DNA of 36,805 bases from a virus, in IMG/VR virus record IMGVR_UViG_3300033571_012350, positions 1 to 36,805 of that record; one strand, given 5' to 3'. The notes under the pieces were generated by a model. The model was given only the letters and a program-made list of their open reading frames with translations, was not told where the DNA came from and did no database searches. This document shows positions 10,301 through 36,250 of the stretch, in pieces; the stretch's first letter is position 1, and each line of letters begins with the position of its first letter. The position numbers and the translations under genes are program-made.

Positions 10301-10936
10301 ATGAAACCAAAACCATTTCTAAAAGATGATATAGAGCGAGCAATGAGAATGACTAAATCTAATCGCGCGGCGGCTAGATACCTTAACTGTTCATACACTC
10401 ATTATAAACAATATGCTAAAAATTTTACAGATGAAAATGGTATAACACTATTTGAAAAACATTTAAATCAATCAGGCAAAGGTATATCTAAATTTTTACC
10501 TAACCGAGGTAAAGAACCAGCATTATTAGATATAATAGAAGGTAGAGTATCAGTTGACTCATACACTCCTGAAAAATTAAAAAACAGGTTAATACAAGAA
10601 AGTTATTTACAAGAATGTTGTTCTAACTGTGGTTTCGCAGAACGAAGAGTAATTGATTATAAAGTACCTTTAATACTTAACTTTAAAGATGGTAATAAGA
10701 AAAATTGGAGAATAGAAAATTTAGAATTACTATGTTACAATCATTATTTCTTATATGTAGGTAATATATTTACTGATAAACAAGTTCAGCATATTGAAGA
10801 TTATAATCCATCAACTTATCAAAGTGAAGTGACTTGGGAGTTAGATGATTATTATAAAGAACATTTAGGTAATTTAGGTATATTAAATACTAGTTCTGAA
10901 ATTGAACCAGGAAGTGAATTCATTTCTAAGGTCTGA
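10301..10936 (+). CDS. HTH plus degenerate HNH-like zinc protein
   Basis: 211 aa. Residues 7-35 (DDIERAMRMTKSNRAAARYL) look like a helix-turn-helix of the kind found at the N-terminus of phage HNH proteins. A later domain has CSNCG near residue 107, YKVPLILNFKDG, then NLELLCYNHYF: the layout of an HNH/zinc-finger nuclease. The His usually found before the acidic residue is Asn here (LNFKDG) and the last CxxC/CxxH pair is CYNH, so catalytic activity is doubtful and it may be a DNA-binding protein. It is the last gene of the first operon. Confidence 0.7.
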   Translation: MKPKPFLKDDIERAMRMTKSNRAAARYLNCSYTHYKQYAKNFTDENGITLFEKHLNQSGKGISKFLPNRGKEPALLDIIEGRVSVDSYTPEKLKNRLIQESYLQECCSNCGFAERRVIDYKVPLILNFKDGNKKNWRIENLELLCYNHYFLYVGNIFTDKQVQHIEDYNPSTYQSEVTWELDDYYKEHLGNLGILNTSSEIEPGSEFISKV

Positions 10937-10959
10937 CCCTAATCCCTTATGTATCTTTA
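10933..10959 (+). promoter_or_regulatory. Phage promoter, first of a tandem pair before DNA ligase
   Basis: -33 element CTGACC and -7 element TATCTTTA with 19 nt between their starts, the same geometry as the other copies in this window. It overlaps the stop codon of the HNH-like gene. Its transcript would cross the hairpin at 10970-10988. Confidence 0.6.
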
Positions 10960-10969
10960 TTAATGGACC

Positions 10970-10988
10970 CTTATAACTTGGTTATAAG
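10970..10988 (+). terminator. Hairpin between two promoters (terminator or operator)
   Basis: Perfect 8-bp stem CTTATAAC / GTTATAAG around a TTG loop, followed by TAAGTTTA. The stem is AT-rich and the U-tract short, so it may equally be an operator or an RNA-stability element. It lies exactly between the two tandem promoters. Confidence 0.4.
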
Positions 10989-10997
10989 TAAGTTTAG

Positions 10998-11024
10998 TTG
11001 ACCTCAATTCCTTTACTATATTTA
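10998..11024 (+). promoter_or_regulatory. Phage promoter before DNA ligase
   Basis: TTGACC and TATATTTA, 19 nt start to start, followed by the conserved A/T-rich leader and AATAAAGGTTATG at the ligase start. One of the best matches to the window consensus. Confidence 0.75.
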
Positions 11025-11046
11025 AATATATTAAAAAATAAAGGTT

Positions 11047-12123
11047 ATGAGTTATCCAATTTTATATAAGCGATCAGTTACAGGTAAAGTATCAACATGG
11101 AGAATTGAAGTAAAAGATAATTGCTTCAGAACAATTAGTGGTTTTGAAGATGGTCAAAAAGTTACTTCAGAATGGACATGTTGCGAAGGCAAATCATATA
11201 ATTCATCTAATGAACAAGCAGTTAGAGAAGCAGACGCAATGTTTCGTAAACGTACTGAGTTAGGATATTGGGAAGATATAAATAAAATAGACACACCAGT
11301 TTATTTTAAACCAATGTTAGCTCATGATTATAATGATTATAAACATAAAATTAAATATCCAATCTTTACTCAACCTAAATTAGATGGTATTAGATGTATT
11401 GTTAAAGAAGATGGTATGTGGACACGTAATGGTAAACGAATTATATCTGCACCTCATATATTTGAATCACTAAAACCATTACTTAAATCAAATCCAGATT
11501 TAATATTAGATGGAGAATTATATGCTAGTAAGGATGTAGCTGATTTTAATAAAATTATATCATGTGTTCGTAAAACAAAACCAACATCAGAAGATTTAAT
11601 ATTAAGTGCTGAGTGTATTGAATATCATATCTATGATATACCAAGTGTTGATAAGACATTTGTTGATCGTTTTAGAGTATTAAATAGTTTATCTTTACCT
11701 ACAACATGCCAGGTTGTTAAAACAGAACAAGTAGATAATGAGAATGATATATCAGCTTATTATTTTGATTATATGGCTGACGGATATGAAGGACAAATAT
11801 TAAGAACGGATTCAAATTATGAAAACAAACGTTCTAAATCATTATTAAAATATAAAACATTTAATGATGCTGAATTTAAAATATTAGGTTATGAAGAAGG
11901 AAAAGGTAATTTAAGTTCAAAAATTGGTAAACTTAAATTTAATATTAATGGTAAACCATTTGATTCTGCTGTTAATGGAACCTGGGAATATTTAACTGAA
12001 TTATGGAATCAAAGAGATGAATTAATTGGGAAGAAAGCAACTGTCAAATATTTCGAATTAACAGAAGATAAAGTTCCTCGCTTTCCTAAGGTGATCAATA
12101 TTGATAGAGATAGTTATGAGTAA
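11047..12123 (+). CDS. ATP-dependent DNA ligase
   Basis: Seals nicks in DNA through an AMP-lysine intermediate. The nucleotidyltransferase motifs are present in order: motif I QPKLDGIR with the adenylated Lys at K111, WTRNGKRI near 125-132, motif III LDGELY with E157, motif IV EGQILR and motif V LLKYK. The last 80 residues after YKTFNDAEFKILGY form the OB domain. Residues 1-70 look like an added WGR-type domain, as in some phage and bacterial proteins. At 358 aa it is a compact phage-size ligase. It has its own promoters and a homing endonuclease gene directly behind it. Confidence 0.93.
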   Translation: MSYPILYKRSVTGKVSTWRIEVKDNCFRTISGFEDGQKVTSEWTCCEGKSYNSSNEQAVREADAMFRKRTELGYWEDINKIDTPVYFKPMLAHDYNDYKHKIKYPIFTQPKLDGIRCIVKEDGMWTRNGKRIISAPHIFESLKPLLKSNPDLILDGELYASKDVADFNKIISCVRKTKPTSEDLILSAECIEYHIYDIPSVDKTFVDRFRVLNSLSLPTTCQVVKTEQVDNENDISAYYFDYMADGYEGQILRTDSNYENKRSKSLLKYKTFNDAEFKILGYEEGKGNLSSKIGKLKFNINGKPFDSAVNGTWEYLTELWNQRDELIGKKATVKYFELTEDKVPRFPKVINIDRDSYE

Positions 12124-12127
12124 ATTC

Positions 12128-12157
12128 TTGACAGGAATGTAGGAATTTATATATTTA
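12128..12157 (+). promoter_or_regulatory. Possible promoter for the homing endonuclease
   Basis: TTGACA followed by TATATTTA, but 22 nt start to start rather than 19, and without the conserved CC. If real it is a different class from the phage's own promoters, consistent with an inserted gene. Confidence 0.3.
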
Positions 12158-12172
12158 TTGAAAATAACAATC

Positions 12173-12862
12173 ATGACATACATTTATTTAATTTCAAATA
12201 TCAATAATGATCCTAAAACAGTGTATATTGGAAAAACATTAAATATATCTCATAGAAAATATCATCATAAACGTAGATTTGGAAATGATATTAAATTTGA
12301 AGTTATTGAAGAGGTTGATTCTATTATGTCGATTGATTGGAAACCATTAGAAATAAAATGGATTAAATATTATGAAAATTTAGGTTATGCTCTTTATAAT
12401 AAAAATAGTGGAGGAAATGGCCCTGACAAACACTCAGATTTAACTAAAAATAAAATATCTCAATCTAAAAAAGGTAATAATTATAATTTAGGAACTAAAT
12501 ACTCCGATGATTCTAAAGAAAAAATTAGAATAAGAAAAAAAGGCCAAAAATATAATATTACTAAGAAAGGAAATGAACATGGTAATTATGGGGTGGTTAG
12601 AAATGATGAATGGAAGAAAAAACAAAGTTTATCTAAGTCAGGTAAAACATTATCTAAAGAACACGTCTTAAAAATAAGTGAAAATAAAATAGATAAAGGA
12701 TTAAAACCAATAATACAATACGATTTAAATATGAATGTAATAAAACATTGGCCTTCCTTAAAAACAGCATCTAAAGAATTAGGAATCAACAGTGGAGATA
12801 TATCATCATGTTGTAGTGGAAAGCAAAAAACAGCTCATGGGTATATATGGAAACATAGTTGA
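12173..12862 (+). CDS. GIY-YIG homing endonuclease with NUMOD modules
   Basis: 229 aa. The N-terminal YIYLISN...VYIGKT is the GIY-YIG core, followed by a Glu-containing segment (KPLEIKWIKYYENLGY). Two NUMOD3-like DNA-binding repeats follow (LTKNKISQSKKG and SDDSKEKIRIRKKGQ), then a C-terminal NUMOD1-like module (PIIQYDLNMNVIKHWPSLKT ... HGYIWKH). I chose the ATG giving MTYIYLIS; a TTG five codons upstream is possible. The gene is free-standing just after DNA ligase, and its TGA lies inside the next promoter, which fits insertion of a selfish element into an intergenic gap. Confidence 0.9.
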   Translation: MTYIYLISNINNDPKTVYIGKTLNISHRKYHHKRRFGNDIKFEVIEEVDSIMSIDWKPLEIKWIKYYENLGYALYNKNSGGNGPDKHSDLTKNKISQSKKGNNYNLGTKYSDDSKEKIRIRKKGQKYNITKKGNEHGNYGVVRNDEWKKKQSLSKSGKTLSKEHVLKISENKIDKGLKPIIQYDLNMNVIKHWPSLKTASKELGINSGDISSCCSGKQKTAHGYIWKHS

Positions 12863-12885
12863 CCCCAATCAGTTACATATATTTA
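12859..12885 (+). promoter_or_regulatory. Phage promoter before the SWIM protein
   Basis: TTGACC and TATATTTA with the standard 19-nt phase, then the leader ending in AATAAAGGTTATG. The TGA of the -33 element is also the stop codon of the endonuclease gene. Confidence 0.75.
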
Positions 12886-12907
12886 ATTATATTAAGAAAT
12901 AAAGGTT

Positions 12908-13333
12908 ATGCTATATAAAGTTCAAACACATTATGGAGACGGGAGAGTAACAAATGAACTAATCAGTTCTCCCGCTCCGTTTAGTATCAAACCATCTCAA
13001 GATGGTATCAAGATTTGTATTGCTAATGTATTTAGGTATGAATTTAATCATTATATGTCTCCTACATTATATATTAGTAATGAAGGTAAAAAATACTTAA
13101 TGCCATCTTGGATTGAAGTTCATCCAGACACTACATTAGATGATGTTAAGTGGATTAAACCAAAACCACCTAAAGAAACAATAGTTGAGAAAACAGTAGG
13201 CTCATTAGGTACTTATAAAACAACTTATGATCCCACTAAAAATACTTATAAATGTACTTGCCCAGGATATTGGAGATCAAAAGGTAATTGCAAACATGTT
13301 CAATCATTACGTGAGAAAAATTTGGCTAATTAA
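12908..13333 (+). CDS. SWIM zinc-finger protein
   Basis: 141 aa. The C-terminus carries a SWIM-type zinc finger, CxC-x9-CxH, with C116, C118, C128 and H130 (YKCTCPGYWRSKGNCKH). SWIM fingers bind nucleic acid or protein partners and occur in phage replication and recombination settings. The N-terminal 90 residues have no known domain but end in a Pro/Lys hinge (KWIKPKPPKETI). Expressed from its own promoter. Confidence 0.8.
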   Translation: MLYKVQTHYGDGRVTNELISSPAPFSIKPSQDGIKICIANVFRYEFNHYMSPTLYISNEGKKYLMPSWIEVHPDTTLDDVKWIKPKPPKETIVEKTVGSLGTYKTTYDPTKNTYKCTCPGYWRSKGNCKHVQSLREKNLAN

Positions 13334-13357
13334 AATAAGAATATTAAATTAAATGTT

Positions 13358-13762
13358 ATGAAAAGATTATTTAGAAAACTTAAAGTAAAATTAACTAGGT
13401 CGTATAAAAATTTTAATAAGGATAAAGCGTTTCCTATATTAACTACTCATCAAATTGGTTCATCAATTTTTAGACGAGCATTGAGAGATGATAATGTAGA
13501 TTTAATCCTAATGCCTGTAGTTAATAAGAGAATTATTAAATTAGAGAAAAAAGGATTGTATATTGTATTACAACATTCATTATTAGAGATAACAAACCAT
13601 AAGTATAGTTATCACCTTGAAATTAATTTTGAATTATTTACTAAATTAAGTAGATTATTTGATAATAAACTTGAGTTAAATTTTAAGGAAGAAGAAGAAA
13701 TGATTAATGAACAATTATCAGGAGGTTTGAAAAAAGTACTTGAAATTTTAAATAAAAAATAA
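13358..13762 (+). CDS. Basic protein of unknown function
   Basis: 134 aa with a strongly basic N-terminus (KRLFRKLKVKLTRSYKNFNK) and an acidic C-terminal helix (NFKEEEEMINEQ). No recognised motif, no membrane segment. Lies in one unit with the following small gene (1-nt gap). Confidence 0.65.
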   Translation: MKRLFRKLKVKLTRSYKNFNKDKAFPILTTHQIGSSIFRRALRDDNVDLILMPVVNKRIIKLEKKGLYIVLQHSLLEITNHKYSYHLEINFELFTKLSRLFDNKLELNFKEEEEMINEQLSGGLKKVLEILNKK

Positions 13763-13763
13763 T

Positions 13764-13961
13764 ATGTCGGGAACAACAGCTATAATTATTAAAACATTAC
13801 TAGACGCATTTACTGAGGAGTGTCTAGAAGAAATTAAAAAAAGTAAACACCCGGAGGAAGGTGATGTATTTAACTTTGGATTATCATCAGCGGAAGCAGC
13901 TGTTAGACGAGTTAAAAATAGATACGAAGAACGATTACAAAACACAATTAAAAATAATTAA
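13764..13961 (+). CDS. Small helical protein of unknown function
   Basis: 65 aa, mostly helical and charged (EECLEEIKKSKHPEEGD; RRVKNRYEERLQ). No recognised family. One nucleotide before the thioredoxin gene. Confidence 0.6.
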   Translation: MSGTTAIIIKTLLDAFTEECLEEIKKSKHPEEGDVFNFGLSSAEAAVRRVKNRYEERLQNTIKNN

Positions 13962-13962
13962 A

Positions 13963-14217
13963 ATGGTAACAGTTAAATATTTCTCAACCCCATCATGTGG
14001 ACCATGTCGCATGTTCGGTCCAGTATTTGAAAGCGTAATGGCTGAAACAAATACTCCATATCAGAAAATAGATGCATCCACAGCATCAGAATTAGCACTA
14101 CAATATCAAATATCAGCTGTACCTACACTTATATTTGAGAAAAATGGTGAGATAGTAAAACGTCACACTGGAGTAATGACACTTGCCCAACTGACAAATG
14201 TGTTAGGGAGCCTGTAG
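13963..14217 (+). CDS. Thioredoxin-like protein
   Basis: Small thiol-disulfide oxidoreductase of 84 aa. The active site is C12-G-P-C15 (TPSCGPCR) after the first strand, the cis-Pro is in AVPTLIFEKNG, and RHTGVMTLAQL closes the fold. The thioredoxin-type CGPC, instead of CPxC, argues against glutaredoxin, though the length resembles T4 NrdC. A likely role is reducing a ribonucleotide reductase or setting the redox state of a phage enzyme. An upstream in-frame extension overlaps the previous gene and has no counterpart in the fold, so I reject it. Stop is immediately followed by a promoter. Confidence 0.85.
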   Translation: MVTVKYFSTPSCGPCRMFGPVFESVMAETNTPYQKIDASTASELALQYQISAVPTLIFEKNGEIVKRHTGVMTLAQLTNVLGSL

Positions 14218-14244
14218 ATGACCCGGGTTAGTTTGTTATATTTA
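14218..14244 (+). promoter_or_regulatory. Phage promoter before the DUF932-like gene
   Basis: ATGACC and TATATTTA, 19-nt phase, with CCCGGG directly after the -33 element. The leader is longer than usual (about 50 nt to the start codon) and of the TATATAAG-A-rich class. Confidence 0.7.
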
Positions 14245-14297
14245 TTATATAAGAAAAAATAAGAAAAATAAATTATTAACAAATTAAAATAAAGGTT

Positions 14298-15092
14298 ATG
14301 AAAACAGTATTCGAAACATTAACATTAGATCAGATTAAAGAATTAGCACCAAGCACATTTCAAACTAAACAAAAAATTGGTTTGAGTGAGCATTATGTTC
14401 ACATTCCAACTGACAGAGTTATTAATGATATGATGTCATTAGGTTGGTTACCATGTGATGCTAAAGAAATTAAAGCACGTAAATCAACTACGGTAGGTTA
14501 TCAACGTCACATGATTAAATTTTTCAATCCAAATATTGAGATTGAAGGTAATGATGGTGATAAAGTTTATCCACAAATTTTATTAACTAATTCACATGAT
14601 GGTTTAAGTTCATTTAAATTCCAGATTGGTTTATTTAGATTAGTATGTTCAAATGGTTTAGTAATTTGTGATCAAAGTTATGGTGATTTTAAATTACGTC
14701 ATATGGGTTATACGTTTGCTGAATTACAAACTAAAATTAATGAAGCAGTTGATTCGTTCCCAATGTTAGTAGAGAAAATGGATCAGTTTTCACAAACAGA
14801 ATTAACTGAAGACCAAATGGTTGATTTCGCTCACAAGGCAATTAAGTTACGTTTCAACAATGAAAAATCAAATACGTTTGTTGATATTGAAGGTTTATTA
14901 AACATCGAACGTAAAGAAGATGAGGGTAATGATTTGTGGAGTGTTTATAACCGAGTACAAGAAAAAATTATTGGTGGTGGATTTAGATACGGTACTAAAA
15001 ATCGTAAAGCAAGAACCATTAAGAATTTTAGCCAGGATTTAAAAATCAATGAAGCGTTATGGGAACTAGCATCAGAATATGTTAGTTGTTAA
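14298..15092 (+). CDS. DUF932-like phage protein
   Basis: 264 aa resembling the DUF932/phage-plasmid-like family: LTNSHDGLSSFKFQIGLFRL and VCSNGLVICD are typical of its core. The function of the family is not settled; members are widespread in phages and plasmids. It is monocistronic, between a promoter and a strong terminator, and its codons (CGT, GGT) look like those of a well-expressed gene, so it may be abundant during infection. Confidence 0.75.
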   Translation: MKTVFETLTLDQIKELAPSTFQTKQKIGLSEHYVHIPTDRVINDMMSLGWLPCDAKEIKARKSTTVGYQRHMIKFFNPNIEIEGNDGDKVYPQILLTNSHDGLSSFKFQIGLFRLVCSNGLVICDQSYGDFKLRHMGYTFAELQTKINEAVDSFPMLVEKMDQFSQTELTEDQMVDFAHKAIKLRFNNEKSNTFVDIEGLLNIERKEDEGNDLWSVYNRVQEKIIGGGFRYGTKNRKARTIKNFSQDLKINEALWELASEYVSC

Positions 15093-15100
15093 TTAAACAA

Positions 15101-15131
15101 AGGGGGTGAATAGCCCCCCTATATTTATTTT
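15101..15131 (+). terminator. Rho-independent terminator after the DUF932-like gene
   Basis: Stem AGGGGG / CCCCCT around an 8-nt loop, followed by ATATTTATTTTAT. The stem is among the GC-richest short stretches locally. A -7-like TATATTTA begins at the last base of the stem, but no -33 element sits 19 nt upstream. Confidence 0.8.
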
Positions 15132-15133
15132 AT

Positions 15134-15490
15134 ATGGCAAGAAATCCTTACGATAAATTAGCTGATAAATTACTTAAACAAAGTGATAAAGGTAATTCAC
15201 TTAAAAAGTTTAATATAGATTTAAGTGGAGTATTAGGTGGAGGTATTGATAATACAAAAATTGAGCAACAATATAATCAAACATTACTTAATAAAACTAT
15301 GATTTGTCTAAATAACCATCTTGGATTTTGGACATCAAAACAATATGGTGACCACACAGCTAGAATAGCTGATATTAAGAGAGATATTAAGTTAGCAGAA
15401 AATATTATTAAACGGTTTGATAATAAAACATTTAACCAGGATGATACAACCAAACTAAAGGATATATTAACTAAACACAGCTGCAATTAA
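15134..15490 (+). CDS. Protein of unknown function
   Basis: 118 aa. Gly-rich turn (DLSGVLGGGIDNTKIEQQ) between a Lys-rich N-terminus and a helical C-terminus containing several Asp/Lys repeats. No recognised family. The 3' end leads into a small gene with a 6-nt gap. Confidence 0.65.
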   Translation: MARNPYDKLADKLLKQSDKGNSLKKFNIDLSGVLGGGIDNTKIEQQYNQTLLNKTMICLNNHLGFWTSKQYGDHTARIADIKRDIKLAENIIKRFDNKTFNQDDTTKLKDILTKHSCN

Positions 15491-15496
15491 TAGGTT

Positions 15497-15658
15497 ATGA
15501 CACAATTAGTAATAGATACTATAGAGTTAGTTAAGTTACGTCAAAATACATCTTCTGGTTATAAAATAGACCAAATGATATTCTTTAATATTAATAAAAT
15601 GACTAATGCAGAAATGCATGACTACCGTTTTGCTATTAAGCAATTAAGAAATACATAA
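15497..15658 (+). CDS. Small protein of unknown function
   Basis: 53 aa, starting at TAGGTTATG, a near match to the window's start signature, which supports its being translated. The sequence MTQLVIDTIELVKLRQNTSS and a helical tail (AEMHDYRFAIKQLRNT) show no known motif. Confidence 0.6.
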   Translation: MTQLVIDTIELVKLRQNTSSGYKIDQMIFFNINKMTNAEMHDYRFAIKQLRNT

Positions 15659-15662
15659 TTGG

Positions 15663-15689
15663 TTGACCTTAATCAACTCATTATCTTTA
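15663..15689 (+). promoter_or_regulatory. Phage promoter before the 302-aa unknown gene
   Basis: TTGACC and TATCTTTA in 19-nt phase, followed by the TATATAAG / AAAAAATAAG leader class and GAAGGTTATG. Confidence 0.75.
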
Positions 15690-15714
15690 TTATATAAGAA
15701 AAAATAAGAAGGTT

Positions 15715-16623
15715 ATGGATATCAAACAAGTTTTATACGATAATTTATTAAGTCAATTAAGCATTCTTAAAAAAGAATATAATGATTATAATGAAAGTAT
15801 TTCAATCCCTGCTCAACAAAAATTAGAAGATGAAATCAATAGTTGGTTTAAAATAAATTTTATATATCCGTTTTCCGAATTAAAATTTGCTAAAGATTTA
15901 ATTACATTATCATTCTCTGATCCAAATGATAAATTAGATAATAAATGGAAGTATAAATTAGAGATACAACTTAAAAGAGATTTCAGTAAAAAAGAATATA
16001 TAGGGATACAATGGGAAAACACTTACGGGGCAAGATTAGATGATGATGTAACGGGTGTTTATTTAAAATTTCTAGGTGAACTCACCACCAGGTCTAATTC
16101 AGTTACTAATAAATTTATTAATGAATGGGCACCATCATATAGAGAAATTATCAAGGATAAAGAAGGCATATACACTAAATACACTTCATTAGAAACATCT
16201 TTAAATAAATTAAAAAATGAAATTAAAGAAGATGAATTAAAAAGTATGAAGGAAATAGGATTCGAATTAGAGTCATTTAAACCAGAATATAAATTTAACT
16301 ATTATGGAGAAGATAAAAATAAAATAACAACGGTTGATAAACTCATACCATTCCAGTATGGTAGAGCATCACATCAGTATGTATATGTTAATGGTTTCAA
16401 AGTAATAGGTAAAGAAGGTAATAAATACCAAGTTGAAGTCAAAGAACGAAGTTATTGTAAAAATGAAGAGTTATATAAAAAATCAACATTAAGCATAACA
16501 GAATTAAAATTTAATTATTTTATAAATAACGTTAATAAATGGGAAAATAAAACATCAATTGAATATAAGCAGGAGGCAGAAAAATTATTTAATAAATATA
16601 AAGAACAAACTGACCTCAATTAG
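15715..16623 (+). CDS. Large helical protein of unknown function
   Basis: 302 aa, rich in Lys, Glu and aromatic residues. The N-terminal third is helical (LLSQLSILKKEYNDYNESIS), the centre has WKYKLEIQLKRDFSKKEYIG, a beta-like hairpin, and residues from about 150 to 180 could form a coiled coil (YTSLETSLNKLKNEIKED). I do not recognise it. Monocistronic; its stop lies inside the next promoter. Confidence 0.7.
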   Translation: MDIKQVLYDNLLSQLSILKKEYNDYNESISIPAQQKLEDEINSWFKINFIYPFSELKFAKDLITLSFSDPNDKLDNKWKYKLEIQLKRDFSKKEYIGIQWENTYGARLDDDVTGVYLKFLGELTTRSNSVTNKFINEWAPSYREIIKDKEGIYTKYTSLETSLNKLKNEIKEDELKSMKEIGFELESFKPEYKFNYYGEDKNKITTVDKLIPFQYGRASHQYVYVNGFKVIGKEGNKYQVEVKERSYCKNEELYKKSTLSITELKFNYFINNVNKWENKTSIEYKQEAEKLFNKYKEQTDLN

Positions 16624-16636
16624 TTACTTATATTTA
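16610..16636 (+). promoter_or_regulatory. Phage promoter before a 55-aa gene
   Basis: CTGACC and TATATTTA in 19-nt phase, overlapping the last codons of the 302-aa gene. The leader ends AATTAAGGGATATG. Confidence 0.7.
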
Positions 16637-16658
16637 ATTATATTAAAAATTAAGGGAT

Positions 16659-18888: not shown

Positions 18889-18911
18889 GGGGCTTGGATA
18901 ACCTAGGCCCC
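18889..18911 (+). terminator. Terminator hairpin with the next promoter in its loop
   Basis: Stem GGGGCTTGG / CCTAGGCCCC (9 bp with two G-U pairs) around a loop of about five bases, then ATATTTACATTTAATT. The loop is the -33 element ATAACC of the following promoter, so the two signals share sequence. Confidence 0.7.
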
Positions 18912-18924
18912 ATATTTACATTTA
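18898..18924 (+). promoter_or_regulatory. Phage promoter threaded through a terminator
   Basis: ATAACC and TACATTTA in 19-nt phase. The -33 element is a weaker variant (TA for TG). The leader matches the A/T-rich class and ends AATAAAGATAATG. Confidence 0.55.
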
Positions 18925-19280: not shown

Positions 19281-19535
19281 ATGGTAGATATTATTAAAAC
19301 ATGGGAAACAGTTTACTTCCAAGCTCAAAATGGAGTGGATGTAGAAGTAATAGAGTTAAGTTACAATCATAAATCAAAATCAATTGATGTAACAACAGCA
19401 AATGAAGAAGCAGTATCATTTAAAGGTGACTCAATAAGTCAAGTAACATTAAAAATAGAAGCATTAAATAAAATGTTAGAGTATTTAAAACAAATAGAAA
19501 AAACACCAAATGCAGCTTTTTCGAAATTCGCATAA
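19281..19535 (+). CDS. Small protein of unknown function
   Basis: 84 aa, beta-rich first half (TVYFQAQNGVDVEVIELSYN) and a helical second half (LKIEALNKMLEYLKQIEKT). Shares a transcript with the previous gene (9-nt gap). Its stop TAA is part of the promoter that follows. Confidence 0.6.
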   Translation: MVDIIKTWETVYFQAQNGVDVEVIELSYNHKSKSIDVTTANEEAVSFKGDSISQVTLKIEALNKMLEYLKQIEKTPNAAFSKFA

Positions 19536-19558
19536 CCTCCTACGTATATATAATTTTA
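19532..19558 (+). promoter_or_regulatory. Probable phage promoter before a structured leader
   Basis: ATAACC and TAATTTTA in 19-nt phase. Both elements deviate from consensus but the spacing is exact. Downstream are about 85 nt of leader containing the hairpin at 19564-19619. Confidence 0.45.
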
Positions 19559-21881: not shown

Positions 21882-22128
21882 TCCGTATTGTCCGGCTTGT
21901 AGTGCATGTGGTGAGGAAGGATGCTGTAGTCCATTAATGTGTACTCAAGCCCCGGACGGCCACTATTGCCAGTCATACTTAATTCACTTGCAAATCGCTT
22001 ATAGAATGGACAAGTACTTTATGGAGAACATATATGATGATTTAGATGAAGGAACAAAACATAGGTACGATATGGAATGGGATAGGGTATATGACCAGAC
22101 ATACAAAATAAATAATGACCCCGACTAG
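21865..22128 (+). CDS. Cys-rich small protein
   Basis: 87 aa. The first 35 residues contain eight Cys (CPACSACGEEGCC ... MCTQAPDGHYCQSYL), enough for one or two zinc sites, followed by helices (IHLQIAYRMDKYFMENIYDD). Similar Cys-rich proteins occur in phages without a known role. Its stop lies in the next promoter. Confidence 0.65.
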   Translation: MEEKYSPYCPACSACGEEGCCSPLMCTQAPDGHYCQSYLIHLQIAYRMDKYFMENIYDDLDEGTKHRYDMEWDRVYDQTYKINNDPD

Positions 22129-22141
22129 ATTATTATATTTA
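22115..22141 (+). promoter_or_regulatory. Phage promoter before a 49-aa membrane gene
   Basis: ATGACC and TATATTTA in 19-nt phase, overlapping the end of the Cys-rich gene; leader ends AATAAAGGTTATG. Confidence 0.7.
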
Positions 22142-24389: not shown

Positions 24390-24416
24390 GTGACCCGGGT
24401 TGGGTTGTTATATTTA
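24353..24416 (+). repeat. Promoter-hairpin module, copy 1
   Basis: CTCCCACCCGCGG, a GTGC stretch, then TGACCCGGGT and a TATATTTA promoter. The same order of sequences recurs at 24712-24770 with scattered differences, so the intergenic module appears duplicated. Confidence 0.6.
24390..24416 (+). promoter_or_regulatory. Phage promoter before a 68-aa gene
   Basis: GTGACC and TATATTTA in 19-nt phase, with CCCGGG after the -33 element as at 14218, 24744 and 26105. Confidence 0.65.
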
Positions 24417-24722: not shown

Positions 24723-24770
24723 CCCGCGGAAGTGCACGATTGGATGACCCGGGTAGGGTAGTTATATTTA
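24712..24770 (+). repeat. Promoter-hairpin module, copy 2
   Basis: Second copy of the module at 24353: CCTCCCACCCGCGG, AGTGCACGAT, TGACCCGGGT and the -7 element. The hairpin is partly decayed here (CGGAAGTGCAC for CGGGAGTGCGC). Confidence 0.6.
24744..24770 (+). promoter_or_regulatory. Phage promoter before the second small membrane gene
   Basis: ATGACC and TATATTTA in 19-nt phase. The downstream leader contains GGAAGTTAAAAAAATTAAA, which recurs after the next gene. Confidence 0.65.
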
Positions 24771-26074: not shown

Positions 26075-26104
26075 AATACGGATGATATATATACATATCG
26101 TTGG

Positions 26105-26131
26105 TTGACCCGGGCTGCCTTAGTATCTTTA
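26105..26131 (+). promoter_or_regulatory. Phage promoter before a 139-aa gene
   Basis: TTGACC and TATCTTTA in 19-nt phase with CCCGGG after the -33 element; TATATAAG / AAAAAATAAG leader and AATAAAGGTTATG follow. Confidence 0.75.
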
Positions 26132-26161: not shown

Positions 26162-26581
26162 ATGAAAAAAGTAATAAACACAACAAAGATCAACACAGTA
26201 GAATTTATTAAAGGTCGTAAAGGTAAATTTAGAACAATTGTTAAAACTCAGTCCGGTATGTTAACTTGTGTTGATGTTGATCCACGTTATAATGAGTACT
26301 ACTCAAACAATCCATCAGCTGTATTAGGTAGTTATAAAAAAGGTGCTTTACAGACTGTTGAGTTTAAAGCAGAAGATAGTAATGTTTGGTTGAATGTTTT
26401 TGCTCGTAATGGTAAAAAGGTTATCATGATTGATGAGGATATGTTATTAGGTTTGGAGGTTGGTGTTATCAATCAGTTATATTTTAACACCAATTTGTAT
26501 AGCCAGGAACAATATAAAGCAGTTAATGCTAAAACATGGGCTTCAAAAGCGTTTGTTATGAATGAAGAAGTTGCGGTTTAA
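26162..26581 (+). CDS. Protein of unknown function, probably well expressed
   Basis: 139 aa, beta-rich (VEFIKGRKGKFRTIVKTQSG; NVWLNVFARNGKKVIMIDED). No known family. It has a good promoter and start signature, CGT/GGT codons, and a palindromic GCGGTT-T-AACCGC at its stop that may terminate transcription; all point to strong expression. Its stop lies in the next promoter. Confidence 0.65.
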   Translation: MKKVINTTKINTVEFIKGRKGKFRTIVKTQSGMLTCVDVDPRYNEYYSNNPSAVLGSYKKGALQTVEFKAEDSNVWLNVFARNGKKVIMIDEDMLLGLEVGVINQLYFNTNLYSQEQYKAVNAKTWASKAFVMNEEVAV

Positions 26582-26604
26582 CCGCGACTAGTTTGTTATA
26601 TTTA
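26578..26604 (+). promoter_or_regulatory. Phage promoter before a 62-aa gene
   Basis: TTAACC and TATATTTA in 19-nt phase. The -33 element overlaps the GCGGTT-T-AACCGC palindrome (26573-26585), a third case of promoter and hairpin sharing sequence. Confidence 0.6.
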
Positions 26605-27517: not shown

Positions 27518-27544
27518 TTGACCTCGACTCCTTAGTTATATTTA
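27518..27544 (+). promoter_or_regulatory. Phage promoter before a 61-aa gene
   Basis: TTGACC and TATATTTA in 19-nt phase, standard leader, although the start context here is AAAAGACATG. Confidence 0.75.
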
Positions 27545-28985: not shown

Positions 28986-29011
28986 TGACCTAGGTTAGTT
29001 TGTTATATTTA
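28985..29011 (+). promoter_or_regulatory. Phage promoter of the RNA-repair cassette
   Basis: ATGACC and TATATTTA in 19-nt phase, then the standard leader and AATAAAGGTTATG. It is the only promoter seen before the five following genes. Confidence 0.75.
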
Positions 29012-30147: not shown

Positions 30148-30527
30148 AAGAATTAATATTATTAAGAGGATTACCGGGTAGTGGTAAATCAACATTAGCA
30201 AAATCAATAGGTAGAATAACAGCTGAAGCTGATCAATATTTTATGGAAGATGATGAATATAAATTTGATGCTTCTAAATTAAAAGATGCACACCTTTGGT
30301 GTCAAAGTATAGTTGATTCATATATGAGAAATGACTTTGAAAGAGTAATTGTATCAAATACGTTTACAACTGAGAGAGAAATGAAGCCTTATTTTGAGAT
30401 GGCTGAGAAGTATGGTTATAGAGTACATTCATTAATTGTAGAGAACAGACATGGTGGTATAAACCAACATAATGTACCAGATGAAACCTTAATTAAAATG
30501 AAAAATCGATTCAATATAAAGTTATGA
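30144..30527 (+). CDS. P-loop polynucleotide-kinase-like protein
   Basis: 127 aa. GLPGSGKST at residues 9-17 is the Walker A loop; EADQYF follows; VSNTFTTEREMKPYFEMA and a lid-like VENRHGGINQHNVPDE segment match the PNK-like AAA/zeta-toxin kinase group. The kinase would phosphorylate 5'-OH ends, matching the RNA ligase downstream. It lacks the phosphatase half of T4 Pnkp, which here could be supplied by the two preceding genes. Confidence 0.85.
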   Translation: MKELILLRGLPGSGKSTLAKSIGRITAEADQYFMEDDEYKFDASKLKDAHLWCQSIVDSYMRNDFERVIVSNTFTTEREMKPYFEMAEKYGYRVHSLIVENRHGGINQHNVPDETLIKMKNRFNIKL

Positions 30528-31123
30528 TAGACAATTTAGAATTAATAAAGCCATTACTCAACTTTGAGGATGAAGATGATTTCTATATGCTTTACATTTT
30601 TAAACGTAAAAAGGATCAACCTGAAGGTGAAAAAGATAATCATCAATCAGTAAGAACTATACGTTCATATTGTATTGCTAGTATCGAACAATTAGAAAAA
30701 CGTTATGATGAAATTATTCAGTTATGCGAAATGTTTAAAGCACGAGCATATATTCACGTTCAAAAACAAAGTCATAAAGACGTATCCTTAAATATGTTAG
30801 TGGATCTGGCTCAACGAATTAAAAGTGGACAACATAAACAACAAAATCTATTTGATTCAATCGTTGGACAAATGAAAACACTTGAGAAACGTTGGATTGT
30901 AGATGTGGATAATATCTTTATTGAAGGACCAAAACATATAATTAATTTGATTAATAGTTTAAAACCTGAAGGAAATAAAATTGAAACTATAATTCCTACT
31001 AAAGTTGGATGTCATTTAATAACTTCTAAATTTGATGTAATGGAGTTTAAAAAATATTACCCAGATGTGGATATTCAGAAGAAAAATCCTACATTATTAT
31101 ATTACCCAAATAGTTTAAATTAA
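30524..31123 (+). CDS. Conserved unknown in the RNA-repair cassette
   Basis: 199 aa. Starts with acidic residues, then YMLYIFKRKKDQPEGEKDNH, a helix with repeated Glu/Cys (YDEIIQLCEMFKARAYIHVQ), and KRWIVDVDNIFIEGP whose Asp pair could bind metal. The order of a strand, RAYIHVQ, and a VDVD motif is loosely reminiscent of primase/polymerase-like folds, but I cannot establish that. ATGA overlap upstream and a 3-nt gap downstream put it firmly in the cassette. Confidence 0.7.
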   Translation: MIDNLELIKPLLNFEDEDDFYMLYIFKRKKDQPEGEKDNHQSVRTIRSYCIASIEQLEKRYDEIIQLCEMFKARAYIHVQKQSHKDVSLNMLVDLAQRIKSGQHKQQNLFDSIVGQMKTLEKRWIVDVDNIFIEGPKHIINLINSLKPEGNKIETIIPTKVGCHLITSKFDVMEFKKYYPDVDIQKKNPTLLYYPNSLN

Positions 31124-31126
31124 AAT

Positions 31127-32257
31127 ATGGAAAATAATAACTCAGTTTGCTTTATAGGCAAAATCAAAGAAATCAAACCAATTGAAGGTGCTGATAAAAT
31201 AGAATTAGCAGTTGTAAATGGATGGACTTGTATCATCCCTAAAGATCAATATGTTGAGGGAAGTTTAGTAATAGTAGCAACCACAGATGCTGTTATCCCT
31301 GAACAATTATCAGATGAATTAAATGTGACTAATTATTTACGTAAAGGTGGACGTGTACGTACTGTTAAATTAAGAGGTGTATATTCTGAATGCTTATTAA
31401 TTCCAACATCAAAATCAGGATTATTTCCTTCAGAAATAAAAGAAGGTAAAGATATGATGGGTGTAATGAATATATTCAAATACGAACCACCAGTTAAACA
31501 AATTCAATTAGCTTCAGGACGTAAAATTAGATATCAAGATAATCCTCACTTTCATGTTTATTATAAATTTCCTAATTTAAAGAATGTTGACGGAATGTTT
31601 AATGAAGATGATGTTGTAGAGATTACTCGTAAAATTCATGGTACTAATGCTCGTTATGGTATTGTTAAGAAAACTAAATTATCTTTTATAGATAAATTAA
31701 AGAAATTTATTAGATTAGCTGATGAATGGATTGACTATGAATATGTTTATGGTTCTCATAACGTTGAAAAAGGATCTGACTCACAAGGTTTTTATTCAAC
31801 TGATGTTTGGAGAACAGCTGCTGAACAATATAATATTAAAAATAAATTATGGTCTTATGTTAAAGATAGAGGTTCTAACTATATTGGAGATGGGATAATA
31901 ATTTATGGAGAAATTTATGGTCCTGGTATTCAAAAAGGATATGATTATGGTTTATCAGATATTGAATTTAAAGCATTTGATATTAAGTTAGATAATGGTT
32001 ATATGGACACTGGTGATACACATATTGCTCTTAATTATTTTTTAAACTTACCTTATGTAGATATTTTATATACTGGTTTATGGGATCAAGAAGTACAAGA
32101 TAAATTCACTTTTAATAATTTTATTCCAGGAACTAAAGTACCTGAAGAAGGAATTGTGATTAAACATATATCAGGTGAACGTAGTAAGATCGCTAAAGTG
32201 ATCAATCCTGATTATTTGATATATGGTGAAAAAAACAATATCGGCGATAGTCATTAG
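31127..32257 (+). CDS. RNA ligase, DraRnl-like
   Basis: 376 aa. Residues 1-115 form an N-terminal OB-like domain (KIKEIKPIEGADKIELAVVN) as in Deinococcus-type Rnl5 ligases. The adenylation motif is RKIHGTNAR with Lys 169, motif III is IIYGEIYGPG, motif IV EEGIVIKH, and motif V ends IAKVINPDY. It joins 3'-OH to 5'-phosphate RNA ends, and the family can seal nicks in RNA or RNA/DNA. With the kinase and phosphoesterase it completes a healing-and-sealing set. It is followed by a different promoter. Confidence 0.9.
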   Translation: MENNNSVCFIGKIKEIKPIEGADKIELAVVNGWTCIIPKDQYVEGSLVIVATTDAVIPEQLSDELNVTNYLRKGGRVRTVKLRGVYSECLLIPTSKSGLFPSEIKEGKDMMGVMNIFKYEPPVKQIQLASGRKIRYQDNPHFHVYYKFPNLKNVDGMFNEDDVVEITRKIHGTNARYGIVKKTKLSFIDKLKKFIRLADEWIDYEYVYGSHNVEKGSDSQGFYSTDVWRTAAEQYNIKNKLWSYVKDRGSNYIGDGIIIYGEIYGPGIQKGYDYGLSDIEFKAFDIKLDNGYMDTGDTHIALNYFLNLPYVDILYTGLWDQEVQDKFTFNNFIPGTKVPEEGIVIKHISGERSKIAKVINPDYLIYGEKNNIGDSH

Positions 32258-32266
32258 ATTTAAGGG

Positions 32267-32294
32267 ATAACCCACAGGATAGTTATTATATTTA
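32267..32294 (+). promoter_or_regulatory. Possible phage promoter before the NlpC/P60 gene
   Basis: ATAACC and TATATTTA but with 20 nt between starts. An inverted repeat TTTATTG / CAATAAA (32291-32297 / 32305-32311) overlaps the -7 element and could be an operator. Confidence 0.4.
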
Positions 32295-32352
32295 TTGATG
32301 TCACCAATAAAATCCTCAGGGAACGATATGTGCGGTTGGAACAGAGAGGTGA

Positions 32353-32880
32353 ATGATGATGAAAATATGTATAATAACTACCTTGATCGTTCTGTTGCCT
32401 AGTCTAGGACTAGCACAGAACAAGTCGGCGACTTCACAGCCAGAAGAAGAAAAGGAACTTCAAATTAAGTTCTTAAATCAAATCGCAGGTATAGCTTTAG
32501 ACTACACCCCGATGTCATTAAAATTGTATGATTTTGTATTTGATTGGATTGGTCGGCCCTATAAGTTTGGGGGTGAATCAAAAAACGGGATTGACTGTTC
32601 AGCATTTGCTAGAGAATTATATTCTAAAGTAGTAAATGAATGGTTACCTAGAAATTCAAGACAGCAATTTAAGTATGTTAAAACTATCTCTAGAGATGAA
32701 TTAAAAACGGGAGATTTAGTATTCTTCAGAATTAAAACTAGAGATATAAGTCATGTTGGAGTTTATTTAAGTAATAATAAATTTATCCAATCAAGTAAAT
32801 CAGGTGTAAACATTGCTTCATTAGAGCACCCTTACTGGAAGAAATATTATTACAGGAGTGGACGTTTAAGTAAAATGTGA
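32353..32880 (+). CDS. Secreted NlpC/P60 cysteine hydrolase (lysin candidate)
   Basis: 175 aa. A Sec signal peptide (KICIITTLIVLLPSLGLAQ) without a lipobox precedes a short linker and a catalytic domain: GIDCSAFARELY with Cys 82, DISHVGVYL with His 134, and FIQSS giving a polar third residue. NlpC/P60 enzymes cut peptide bonds in peptidoglycan, so this is a candidate endolysin that exports itself. The start is one of three tandem ATGs after AGAGGTG, a Shine-Dalgarno-like site unusual in this window. Codon use early in the gene is less AT-biased than its neighbours. Confidence 0.85.
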   Translation: MMMKICIITTLIVLLPSLGLAQNKSATSQPEEEKELQIKFLNQIAGIALDYTPMSLKLYDFVFDWIGRPYKFGGESKNGIDCSAFARELYSKVVNEWLPRNSRQQFKYVKTISRDELKTGDLVFFRIKTRDISHVGVYLSNNKFIQSSKSGVNIASLEHPYWKKYYYRSGRLSKM

Positions 32881-33059
32881 TGGAAACAATTAAAAAATTA
32901 AAAGAAGACAAGTCTAAACTAATAGATGAAATATTAGATTTAGTACACGTTATAAACCAAAAAGACGAATATATTGATCATTTAAAAACAAAATTATCAT
33001 TTAAAGAAGTTAAATTTGATAATGATGATTTAGATCAAGTATTTGAAAGAAACGATTAA
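32880..33059 (+). CDS. Small coiled-coil protein
   Basis: 59 aa, heptads (TIKKLKEDKSKLIDEILDLV; NQKDEYIDHLKTKL) with an acidic end. Start overlaps the lysin stop (TGATG). Could be a spanin-like or regulator partner by position only. Confidence 0.55.
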   Translation: METIKKLKEDKSKLIDEILDLVHVINQKDEYIDHLKTKLSFKEVKFDNDDLDQVFERND

Positions 33060-33086
33060 TTAATTTTCTAGAATATTACCCTTACT

Positions 33087-33114
33087 GAGCCGCAGTCTTT
33101 TATGACCGCGGCTC
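33087..33114 (+). terminator. Strong terminator overlapping the next promoter
   Basis: GAGCCGC / GCGGCTC (7 bp), one mismatch, then GTC / GAC and a TTTTAT loop; TTTCATT follows. The -33 element ATGACC of the next promoter (33102-33107) is inside the hairpin. Confidence 0.8.
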
Positions 33115-33128
33115 TTTCATTATCTTTA
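33102..33128 (+). promoter_or_regulatory. Phage promoter threaded through a terminator
   Basis: ATGACC and TATCTTTA in 19-nt phase. Same design as at 18898. Confidence 0.7.
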
Positions 33129-33152
33129 TTATATAAGAAAAAATAAGAAATT

Positions 33153-33335
33153 ATGGAAACAAGAGTAAGTATAATCGTTCAATCACATTTAAACAGTGTT
33201 AGTGTTGAAATTCACCATGACAAAGAATTGTCATTAAAAAGATTAAAATTTATTCAGTTGTTGTTATCTAAATTCCCTAATACAAGGGATGTAATTAGTG
33301 ATGAACAATTAGATGAATTATGGGACACATTATAA
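33153..33335 (+). CDS. Small protein of unknown function
   Basis: 60 aa (METRVSIIVQSHLNSVSVEI ... FIQLLLSKFPNTRDVISDEQ). No motif. Its stop touches the next promoter. Confidence 0.6.
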   Translation: METRVSIIVQSHLNSVSVEIHHDKELSLKRLKFIQLLLSKFPNTRDVISDEQLDELWDTL

Positions 33336-33361
33336 TGACCTCAATCCATTCATTAAATTTA
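33335..33361 (+). promoter_or_regulatory. Phage promoter before a coiled-coil gene
   Basis: ATGACC and TAAATTTA in 19-nt phase, leader ends AATAAAGATTATG. Confidence 0.65.
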
Positions 33362-33383
33362 AATATATTAAAAAATAAAGATT

Positions 33384-33587
33384 ATGTCAGAAATTACAAG
33401 TGATGCTTACACTAAATCATTAGAAGGTACAATTGAGTATTTGAGAAAAATGGTTTCTTTAAAAGAAGGAATGATTGAAATACAAGAAAATAGAGTTGAT
33501 TTTCTAAATGGACACATCAAAGAACTTCAAAAAATTATTGAAGATTATCAAAAAATTATTTTAGATTATAAAAAATTAATTAAATAG
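33384..33587 (+). CDS. Small coiled-coil protein
   Basis: 67 aa, continuous heptads (LEGTIEYLRKMVSLKEGMIE; IKELQKIIEDYQKIILDYKK). Likely an oligomerising partner of the 369-aa protein 3 nt downstream. Confidence 0.6.
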   Translation: MSEITSDAYTKSLEGTIEYLRKMVSLKEGMIEIQENRVDFLNGHIKELQKIIEDYQKIILDYKKLIK

Positions 33588-33590
33588 ATT

Positions 33591-34700
33591 ATGTTAGAAA
33601 ATGTTTTTTCCACCCATGTTGTTGAAGATTATAACACAGGTAAAGTTAAATACTCAGGAAGCCATTATTGGAATTCAGAATGTTATTTTATAAGTAAAGA
33701 TAACACATTAAGATTAAAAAAGATAATTGATACTATCTATAACACAAAAATAGGTAAAATTAAAGATGGTAGTATTTTTTATGCTTCTAAAGCAAGTGAA
33801 ATACCTCGTTTTAAATTAAAAGAGTTTATTAAAGATAATAAATTAAAGAAGACATCAAGACATGCTTATGCTGAGTATATTCTGATTAGTAAAGGATTTA
33901 TTAATGATTTAAATAAACAATTAAATATTGAAGATATTGTATTTTTTAAAGAAAAATTTGTAGTAAAACATTTTTTAGATAATGCACAATCAAATTGGGC
34001 GGTAGATAAACAAAAAAATATCTATATAAAAGCTGAAAATAGAGATAAAGTAGCTTATATTAGACCAGATTATATAGAAACTGTAAAAGAATTATTTAAA
34101 AAACATCCAGCTGATAAAGCTATATTTGAAGCTAATACATCTTCATTTTCTGGAGTTGAAGTAGATGGATACCGTAATGCTAAATTATTTGAAGTTGTTA
34201 ATTTACTTTTTGAACATGAGAAAAATATTCTTAGTGGTAAATTAAAATTTATTTTTGATGAGGAATTTTTTGCTGATTTGAATAAAGATGGTATTGAATT
34301 AGATGATGAATATTTAACTATCCTAAGAGATATGTTATTCAGTGAGGATAAAGATAATATTAAGTTAGGTTTTGAAATGATGTCTAACTTGGTTATTAAT
34401 GACCACACATTGTTATCAATTTCATTTTTATTAAATGAATTATATCATTTACATAATTTTAGACCTAGTCAATATACACAATCTAATACTAATTTAAAAG
34501 GTTTATTAGCATTATTAAAGACCAAAGGTATTAAATGGGACCATGATTGGAAAGCATTTGGTAGTGGTTTAAGATTAGCTTTTAAAGAAGGTGAAGAAGG
34601 TAAGGTTGTTAAGAAATTCTTACTAGATAATATTAACAGAGAATTTAAGTTAAGTAATAGTGCTTCAGAAGCCTTGGTGGATATTGTTTTTGCGACCTAG
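33591..34700 (+). CDS. Large protein of unknown function
   Basis: 369 aa. Residues 1-100 are beta-rich (VVEDYNTGKVKYSGSHYWNS); the C-terminal half is strongly helical and resembles HEAT-like or four-helix repeats (GLLALLKTKGIKWDHDWKAF). No recognised motif. It lies directly upstream of the VWA/MoxR pair and may belong functionally with it. The stop is inside the next promoter. Confidence 0.65.
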   Translation: MLENVFSTHVVEDYNTGKVKYSGSHYWNSECYFISKDNTLRLKKIIDTIYNTKIGKIKDGSIFYASKASEIPRFKLKEFIKDNKLKKTSRHAYAEYILISKGFINDLNKQLNIEDIVFFKEKFVVKHFLDNAQSNWAVDKQKNIYIKAENRDKVAYIRPDYIETVKELFKKHPADKAIFEANTSSFSGVEVDGYRNAKLFEVVNLLFEHEKNILSGKLKFIFDEEFFADLNKDGIELDDEYLTILRDMLFSEDKDNIKLGFEMMSNLVINDHTLLSISFLLNELYHLHNFRPSQYTQSNTNLKGLLALLKTKGIKWDHDWKAFGSGLRLAFKEGEEGKVVKKFLLDNINREFKLSNSASEALVDIVFAT

Positions 34701-34718
34701 ACTAGTTACTTATCTTTA
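34692..34718 (+). promoter_or_regulatory. Phage promoter before the VWA protein gene
   Basis: GCGACC and TATCTTTA in 19-nt phase, overlapping the previous stop codon. Confidence 0.6.
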
Positions 34719-34736
34719 TTATATAAATAAAACGAC

Positions 34737-35978
34737 ATGATAGACGATTTACACGCAGACATTGCCAAACACGCTAAAACATTAATGTTTAAAGAACCAT
34801 TTTATGGTTTGTTTTTGATTGGCTTAAATAAGGAAATTAGTAATGCTGTTCAAACAGCATGTGTTGCTAAAGATGGTATCAATACTAAATTAGTTGTTAG
34901 TCCTGCTTTTTGGGATACAATTGGTGAGAAATGTAAAGTAGCAGTTCTGAAACATGAATTATTACATATTGCATTTAAACACTTACATATGTTTGATAGT
35001 TTTCAAGATAAACAATTATTAAACGTAGCTGCCGATATTGAAATTAATCAATACATTCAAGACGATTATAAGGACGAAACATGGGATGGTTTAGAAATTG
35101 ATCAATCACCATTTAAAGAGTTAAATTTACCCTTAAAAGCAGGTACTAGAAAGTATTATGATTTGTTACAAAAAGAACAACAAGATAACCCAGAAGGTGA
35201 TTTTGCTAAATTTATGGAGGCAATGTCTGAGGCTAATGGAAGTGGTGAGGCTAAAGAGATTACTTTAGGTGATGGCACTAAGGTTACAGTTAAAGGTTCT
35301 CATGAGTTTTGGAAACAATTTGAGAACATGGATGAGGCTGAAAAGAAATTGATGGAAAAACAAATTGAACATCAGTTGAGAGAAGTAGCAGATCAAGTTG
35401 AACGTAATAGAGGTACTATACCAGGTGAATTACAAGGATTAATTAACGAACTTAGAATTAAAGAAGAAGCAGTTATTGATTGGAAAGCTTATCTTAGACG
35501 TTTTAATGGTATGGCTTCTAAAGTTTATACTAAGAAAACAAGACGTAAACCAAATAAACGTTTTTATGGTAATCCAGCCTTAAAAATTAAACAAAAGAAA
35601 AATACATTAGTTGCTATTGACACATCAGGTTCTGTTTCTGATAATGATTTAAAGGATTTCTTTAGTGAAATATATCATATATGGAAAACAGGTACTGAAG
35701 TGACAATTGTAGAATGTGATGCTAGAATTGGTAGAGTTTATGAATATAAAGGTGAAACAGATAATATTAAAGTATCAGGTAGAGGTGGTACAGATTTTGA
35801 ACCAGTAATGAAATATTTACAAGAACATTCAGATAAGTATCAAAATTTAATTTATTTAACAGATGGTGAAAGTTGTGTACCTGAAACAAAACCAATTAAA
35901 CCAGTATTATGGGTACATTGCGCTAACTGTAAAGTAAATGAGGATTTACCAGGTGCTAAAATTCAAATTACTAGATAA
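34737..35978 (+). CDS. VWA/metallopeptidase-like protein (DUF2201-type)
   Basis: 413 aa. Residues 66-85 (CKVAVLKHELLHIAFKH) carry a zincin HExxH (H73-E74-L-L-H77), as in the N-terminal metallopeptidase-like domain of DUF2201. From about residue 295 (VAIDTSGSVSDNDL) runs a von Willebrand A domain with the MIDAS DxSxS, a Thr in GRGGTDFEPV, and LTDGE. Such proteins pair with MoxR-type ATPases as substrate-handling partners, and one follows two genes later. Between the domains is an acidic hinge. Its TAA overlaps the next ATG. Confidence 0.85.
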   Translation: MIDDLHADIAKHAKTLMFKEPFYGLFLIGLNKEISNAVQTACVAKDGINTKLVVSPAFWDTIGEKCKVAVLKHELLHIAFKHLHMFDSFQDKQLLNVAADIEINQYIQDDYKDETWDGLEIDQSPFKELNLPLKAGTRKYYDLLQKEQQDNPEGDFAKFMEAMSEANGSGEAKEITLGDGTKVTVKGSHEFWKQFENMDEAEKKLMEKQIEHQLREVADQVERNRGTIPGELQGLINELRIKEEAVIDWKAYLRRFNGMASKVYTKKTRRKPNKRFYGNPALKIKQKKNTLVAIDTSGSVSDNDLKDFFSEIYHIWKTGTEVTIVECDARIGRVYEYKGETDNIKVSGRGGTDFEPVMKYLQEHSDKYQNLIYLTDGESCVPETKPIKPVLWVHCANCKVNEDLPGAKIQITR

Positions 35979-36214
35979 TGGAAACTTTAAAAATAGATAA
36001 TAATTTATATAAGGAATTAGAAAAAAATATTAATAGTGAGTTAGATAGTGATATTCGTTTTGCATTAAATGTAATTCAATTAGGTGATGAGTATGATAAA
36101 GAAACACAAATTAATATTCCAAAATTATATGGAGCGTTAACAAAGAAACATGGATACAAATATCATCATCTTATATTTGATTCATTATTTGCTAGAGCAA
36201 CAAATATGAAATAG
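35978..36214 (+). CDS. Small protein of unknown function
   Basis: 78 aa, acidic and helical (DNNLYKELEKNINSELDSDI), with YGALTKKHGYKYHHLIFDSL at the end. One base of overlap with the VWA gene suggests a linked function. Not recognised. Confidence 0.6.
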   Translation: METLKIDNNLYKELEKNINSELDSDIRFALNVIQLGDEYDKETQINIPKLYGALTKKHGYKYHHLIFDSLFARATNMK

Positions 36215-36223
36215 TGGGTTTTT

Positions 36224-36250
36224 ATGACCTCGACTAATTACTTATCTTTA
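36224..36250 (+). promoter_or_regulatory. Phage promoter before the MoxR-like ATPase gene
   Basis: ATGACC and TATCTTTA in 19-nt phase, TATATAAG leader class, and AAAAAAAAGGTTATG. Confidence 0.75.

Follow-up and report, generated by a model that had tools for sequence, protein, structure and literature searches.

A 36.8 kb virus record (IMG/VR record IMGVR_UViG_3300033571_012350, 36,805 nucleotides, classed as linear; hereafter the window), which is probably a phage genome fragment, carries between its genes a recurrent motif in which TGACC is followed 13 nucleotides later by a TAHHTTTA box. From sequence comparison, the motif appears to define a genuine promoter class that is specific to one lineage and has a layout like that of phage T4 middle promoters, and we infer with high confidence that the TGACC sites act as promoters. 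In this layout a host-type -7 box would be combined with a weakened -33 element and a phage-specific element that ends exactly 13 base pairs upstream of the -7 box. The closest cultured relative of the window is Flavobacterium phage immuto (160 kb), which has T4-like capsid, sheath and baseplate genes; the gene order of the window, with glycosyltransferases followed by an HNH gene and then by a DUF932 gene and many small genes, is consistent with that of immuto. The host probably belongs to the Bacteroidota, judging by immuto and by the promoter type.

In the window, all 19 intergenic sites listed in an earlier note on this DNA are present (Table 1); 18 are exactly TRACC-N13-TAnnTTTA and one, listed at 34692, is CGACC, while a further site at 32267, described as off by one, indeed has a spacing of 14. 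Like nearly all genes, the 19 sites are on the plus strand, and the minus strand has no TRACC-N13-TAnnTTTA site. Second-order Markov shuffles of the window, a check named beforehand, gave an expectation of 0.155 sites with both strands summed, as compared to the 18 (plus) and 0 (minus) observed. Among spacings of 6 to 25 other than 13, there was never more than one site on the plus strand. The first 10.9 kb, an operon rich in glycosyltransferases, has no TGACC-type site, as had been claimed. Sites 19533 and 10934 are weaker than the other 17, although the latter, whose leader does not match, occupies the position of the first site in relatives, after the HNH gene. TGACC promoters are often arranged in tandem, 60-150 nucleotides apart, as seen at 10934-11024 of the window and in relatives, where tiny reading frames lie between them.

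Related contigs were collected by pattern and protein searches of IMG/VR, and many showed dense sites on one strand; the counts below refer to seven contigs of the clade (394 kb), most clade genomes being incomplete. Contigs that matched TTGACCTCAACACTAAGG (L012, L014, L020, L021, L023 and L024) were set aside, as they had no similarity to the clade. TGACC-N13-TAHHTTTA was found 108 times, as compared to 0-2 times for each other spacing from 5 to 24, which bears out the earlier claim of a genome-wide Bacteroidota-type promoter class whose phage-specific upstream element is held at a strictly constant distance. The T/C-G/A-ACC form had 125 sites on the plus strand and 1 on the minus strand. Alignment of 107 distinct sites yielded a consensus of a weak TTG, 2 nucleotides, TGACC, a tail of approximately GCRAYT, TAWHTTTA and an A/T-only stretch; the search pattern itself accounts for part of the invariance seen at TRACC and TTTA. 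Two counts are less affected by this bias: T/C-G/A-ACC stands exactly 18 nucleotides upstream of 103 of 196 intergenic TAHHTTTA boxes, and TAHHTTT is followed by A in 108 of 110 TGACC sites. The sites precede most small non-structural genes of the clade, with a typical distance from box to start codon of 22-25 nucleotides (median 23). Transcription had been proposed to start about 7 nucleotides after the box; data from Flavobacterium johnsoniae instead predict a start 4-5 nucleotides after the -7 box (PMC6847099). A few TGACC sites are located just 4-5 nucleotides ahead of an ATG (10539, 16213 and 19757 in contig G014, 3603 in G003 and 8775 in G008) and would yield leaderless transcripts.

The promoters of the primary sigma factor in F. 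johnsoniae, with TTTG at -33 and TAHHTTTG at -7, have a nearly invariant G at -5 (PMC6847099). The clade sites share the TAHHTTT core and in part a TTG, but they differ from these promoters by the A at -5 and by ACC at a fixed distance. A TTG separated from the -7 box by 20 nucleotides (TTG-N20) was found in 31 of 107 sites, as compared to approximately 1 at neighboring offsets. In the sister phages used for comparison (contigs G015 and G016 and phage immuto), which lack TGACC, the box was preceded by TTGG-N19 or TTGC-N19 in 38, 8 and 29 cases, respectively. As TTG-N20 is the rule in the sisters and is found in 31 of 107 clade sites, the string TTGACC would join the tail of a decayed -33 element to a new element; the host-type -33 element would then be TTG-N20, which lies 4 nucleotides upstream of the TTG in TTGACC and appears decayed in most sites. 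The interpretation of TTGACC as a shifted -35 element, and with it the earlier suggestion that its TTG is the -33 element, was therefore rejected in favor of TTG-N20 plus TGACC. Moreover, the clade genomes have retained a smaller class of promoters, with TTG-N20-TAHHTTTA but no TGACC (18 at spacing 20 versus about 2 at neighboring spacings), preceding, for example, the DNA polymerase gene and a gene for a PD-(D/E)XK-type nuclease, so named from its relative in immuto; two upstream specificities thus coexist in these genomes.

Two other features that the earlier note had assigned to the class were interpreted differently. The final A of the box had been considered a mark of the class, but it is equally strict in sister phages without TGACC (38 of 39 and 29 of 30 boxes). 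An A at -5 is common to the TGACC clade, G015, G016 and immuto, while the more distant phage Mel-JY01 mostly has G; as this A is also found in phages without TGACC, it would be older than TGACC and not its partner. Likewise, two separate leader classes had been described. The -7 box variant covaries with the leader, TTATATAA being found after 18 of 25 TATC boxes versus 15 of 82 others (p ~1e-6), and mutual information analysis showed that both leaders are one TTATA string shifted by 1 nucleotide. Two classes were therefore rejected in favor of one TTATA element in two registers.

At approximately 12 orthologous genes, the TGACC promoter occupies the place of the sisters' TTTGG- or GTTGC-N19-TATATTTA, suggesting that the upstream half was exchanged genome-wide with retention of the -7 box. 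Besides the box and the orthologous genes, the clade has in common with immuto, G015 and G016 that the leaders are short and rich in A. A tree of the DUF2201/VWA protein placed every TGACC locus in one clade (support 100/99), while the sister clade and the next outgroups have TTG-N20. None of 41 loci with a DUF2201/VWA protein at ≤65% identity has TGACC, and in some members of the clade the short sequence examined at this locus contains no TGACC. With TTG-N20 present in the sister clade and in outer groups, TTG-N20-TAHHTTTA is likely ancestral and TGACC derived. A single TGACC site found in one conserved gene neighborhood of distant phages of another group looks like a horizontal gain. A comparison with host genomes, which the earlier note had called for, found no enrichment of the exact motif in 247 Bacteroidia genomes (38 matches versus 55 for the reversed control, ≤2 per genome). 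The actual host of this phage was not identified and a rigid host-type pattern was equally flat (26 versus 26 controls), so that the rejection of TGACC as a host motif is a weak one. No account of the motif was found in the literature on Flavobacterium phage promoters, crAss-like promoters or DpdA.

A similar layout is known from T4 middle promoters, in which a MotA box located 12-13 base pairs upstream of the -10 box takes the place of the -35 element (PMC2988021). As in T4, the host -10/-7 box is kept in the clade and the phage element ends about 12-13 base pairs upstream (13 in the 108 clade sites), the host -35/-33 element appears to be weak or lost and many genes would be coordinated, and the clade's relatives are T4-like myoviruses. 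In contrast to T4, the clade has TGACC-GCRAYT and not the MotA box TTGCTTTA, keeps TTG in part, has a more tightly conserved core and uses it in the small-gene region. No relative of MotA or AsiA was found among the clade proteins scanned against Pfam and PHROGs, which were a part of the proteins from partial genomes. The resemblance is therefore best described as a likeness of layout and not as membership.

The most economical reader of the TGACC sites would be the host polymerase with an altered specificity. In the proposed mechanism, the sites would be host-polymerase-type promoters for the non-structural genes of the clade, with TAHHTTTA as the version of the Bacteroidota -7 sigma element that the phages use. 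The usual -33 TTG would have decayed, and upstream recognition would have moved to TGACC and the weaker GCRAYT tail, located approximately between -30 and -20. A factor encoded or modified by the phage could bind TGACC while touching the polymerase, which would allow the phage to switch on the whole gene set together. The base-exact spacing and the weakened -33 element point to a factor that is bound together with the polymerase; as the spacing of 13 has almost no exceptions, simultaneous contact with TGACC and the -7 box is likely, while a repressor site would tolerate more drift. We give this mechanism as a whole, in which a phage factor redirects the host polymerase to TGACC promoters, about an even chance of being correct.

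Several observations weigh against this mechanism. The TGACC promoters are located in the small-gene region, which in T4 is mainly early. No TAHHTTTG promoters with host spacing were found in the clade genomes, which are mostly incomplete, and the unmodified polymerase must read something first. Moreover, no reader protein for TGACC was found among the candidates examined. A conserved helix-turn-helix protein of 76 amino acids is an unlikely reader, as its recognition helix is the same in a sister without TGACC and variable inside the TGACC clade. A clade-enriched protein of 302 amino acids was rejected because its predicted structure (predicted local distance difference test score, pLDDT, 84) has no known fold match and distant relatives are found in phages without the motif. 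In addition, a protein of 230-250 amino acids without annotation, which resembles sigma region 2, is conserved across all these phages (Table 1). The G015 protein matched sigma-70 region 2 (E value 3.7e-5 in a search of one genome) but fell short of the curated cut-off, and the structural model was poor (pLDDT 48), with only non-significant matches to sigma domain 2 folds. This protein is a candidate, probably gp55-like, late sigma factor and was rejected as the TGACC reader because it is equally present in phages without TGACC.

The chief alternative, which we consider possible but doubtful, is that the TGACC sites are strong early promoters read by the unmodified host holoenzyme, with TGACC and its tail providing, as in the "uber" early promoters of T4, an extra contact with sigma or polymerase that is tuned to the host of the clade. 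Consistent with this explanation, the promoters govern a small-gene region typical of host takeover, where the sisters have TTG-N20 promoters with an extended consensus of their own (e.g., GATGT before the box in G015), and no other promoter class rich enough for a first wave was seen in these partial genomes. T4 early promoters are also numerous, strong and placed before small genes, and they likewise carry a consensus beyond that of the host (PMC2988021). However, T4 improves the host -35 element, whereas the -33 TTG of the clade is weakened where TGACC is present. The lack of enrichment in Bacteroidia genomes also argues against a contact tuned to the host, weakly in view of the flat host-type pattern.

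Alternatively, TGACC could be an operator at which a repressor or shut-off factor of the phage binds, overlapping the promoter between -33 and -7. A protein bound at this position would exclude polymerase, and ACC-NN-RRY is weakly two-fold symmetric, but the base-exact spacing in 108 sites and a -33 box that is weakened rather than kept strong make an operator unlikely. That the sites are promoters of a phage-encoded RNA polymerase, as their long and strict consensus might suggest, is very improbable, as the -7 half is the same as in sisters with a host-type -33 element and no gene for a multisubunit RNA polymerase (PF00562, Rpb2-like) was found in the incomplete clade genomes with a working positive control (a search with PF00940, for which the control was also silent, was uninformative).

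Table 1. Putative TGACC promoter cores in the window, the gene preceding them, and the sigma region 2-like protein of related phages
Feature	Position	Strand	Remarks
HNH-like gene	10301..10936	+	last gene ahead of the TGACC-controlled region in clade members having that stretch
TGACC-N13-TATCTTTA core	10934..10959	+	weak leader; first of tandem pair
TGACC-N13-TATATTTA core	10999..11024	+	upstream of DNA ligase-like gene 11047
TGACC core	12860..12885	+	upstream of gene 12908
TGACC core	14219..14244	+	upstream of DUF932 gene 14298
TGACC core, host-type TTG kept at 15659-15661	15664..15689	+	upstream of gene 15715
TGACC core	16611..16636	+	upstream of gene 16659
TAACC variant core, TTG kept at 18894-18896	18899..18924	+	
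TAACC variant, box TAATTTTA	19533..19558	+	doubtful member: leader without match
TGACC core	22116..22141	+	
TGACC core	24391..24416	+	upstream of gene 24430
TGACC core, TTG kept at 24740-24742	24745..24770	+	
TGACC core, TTG kept at 26101-26103	26106..26131	+	upstream of gene 26162
TAACC variant core	26579..26604	+	upstream of gene 26634
TGACC core	27519..27544	+	upstream of gene 27568
TGACC core	28986..29011	+	upstream of gene 29034, phosphoesterase-like by its immuto relative
TGACC core	33103..33128	+	upstream of gene 33153
TGACC core	33336..33361	+	upstream of gene 33384
CGACC variant core	34693..34718	+	upstream of DUF2201/VWA gene 34737
TGACC core	36225..36250	+	upstream of ATPase gene running off the window
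Sigma region 2-like protein	G015 36814-37515; G014 63467-64219 (L114:3467-4219); immuto 78154-78816		

Other promoter-like sequences were also found in these phages. TATTTATA occurs 8-70 nucleotides before gene starts far more often than its reverse complement (30 versus 5 in G015, 23 versus 7 in G016 and 21 versus 7 in immuto); the sites are often located among the structural genes of these three phages and are also found in G014, and they are possible late promoters without a -33 element. In a subset of G015 and G016 promoters, such as TTGGCTCCTCAGGGAGCCTTTGTTATATTTA, the 20-nucleotide spacer consists of a G+C-rich hairpin with T after it, and a single sequence may thus both terminate the transcript from upstream and initiate the following one. 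Although Microcystis phage Mel-JY01 (PP395634.1) is listed with a cyanobacterial host, its promoters are of the Bacteroidota type (TTGCAT-N17-TATATTTG) and its core proteins are close to those of immuto, suggesting that its host label may be wrong.

Genes for 7-deazaguanine DNA modification (DpdA, QueC, QueD, QueE, FolE) were found in G015 (122238-127635), G016 (98108-98887), immuto (18607-36971) and G014 (182-2742), the last with only QueE-like and FolE genes at the contig end. DpdA is encoded by immuto, G015 and G016, which have promoters with A at -5, and is absent from Mel-JY01, with G at -5. More speculatively, T4-like Bacteroidota phages may have an independent MotA-like system, in which a phage protein unrelated to MotA redirects the unusual primary sigma factor of the Bacteroidota to TGACC and, once acquired on one branch, led to the rewiring of at least a dozen conserved promoters; the A that replaces G at -5, which the sister phages share, may be a further adaptation to 7-deazaguanine in the phages' own DNA, a part that rests on very few independent cases.

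The appropriation of sigma by a phage has been described for T4 in Escherichia coli, while, to our knowledge, little is known about transcription takeover by lytic Bacteroidota phages. The TGACC clade provides a clean bioinformatic example of a conserved promoter set whose upstream half was swapped on a single branch, with retention of the -7 half, the genes and the short leaders. The orthologous promoter pairs lend themselves to direct tests, for which immuto offers the ancestral state in a cultured relative, and the two-part promoter consensus can be used for annotating these uncultured phages. Taken together, this suggests that a whole promoter set was rewired for reading by a modified host RNA polymerase.

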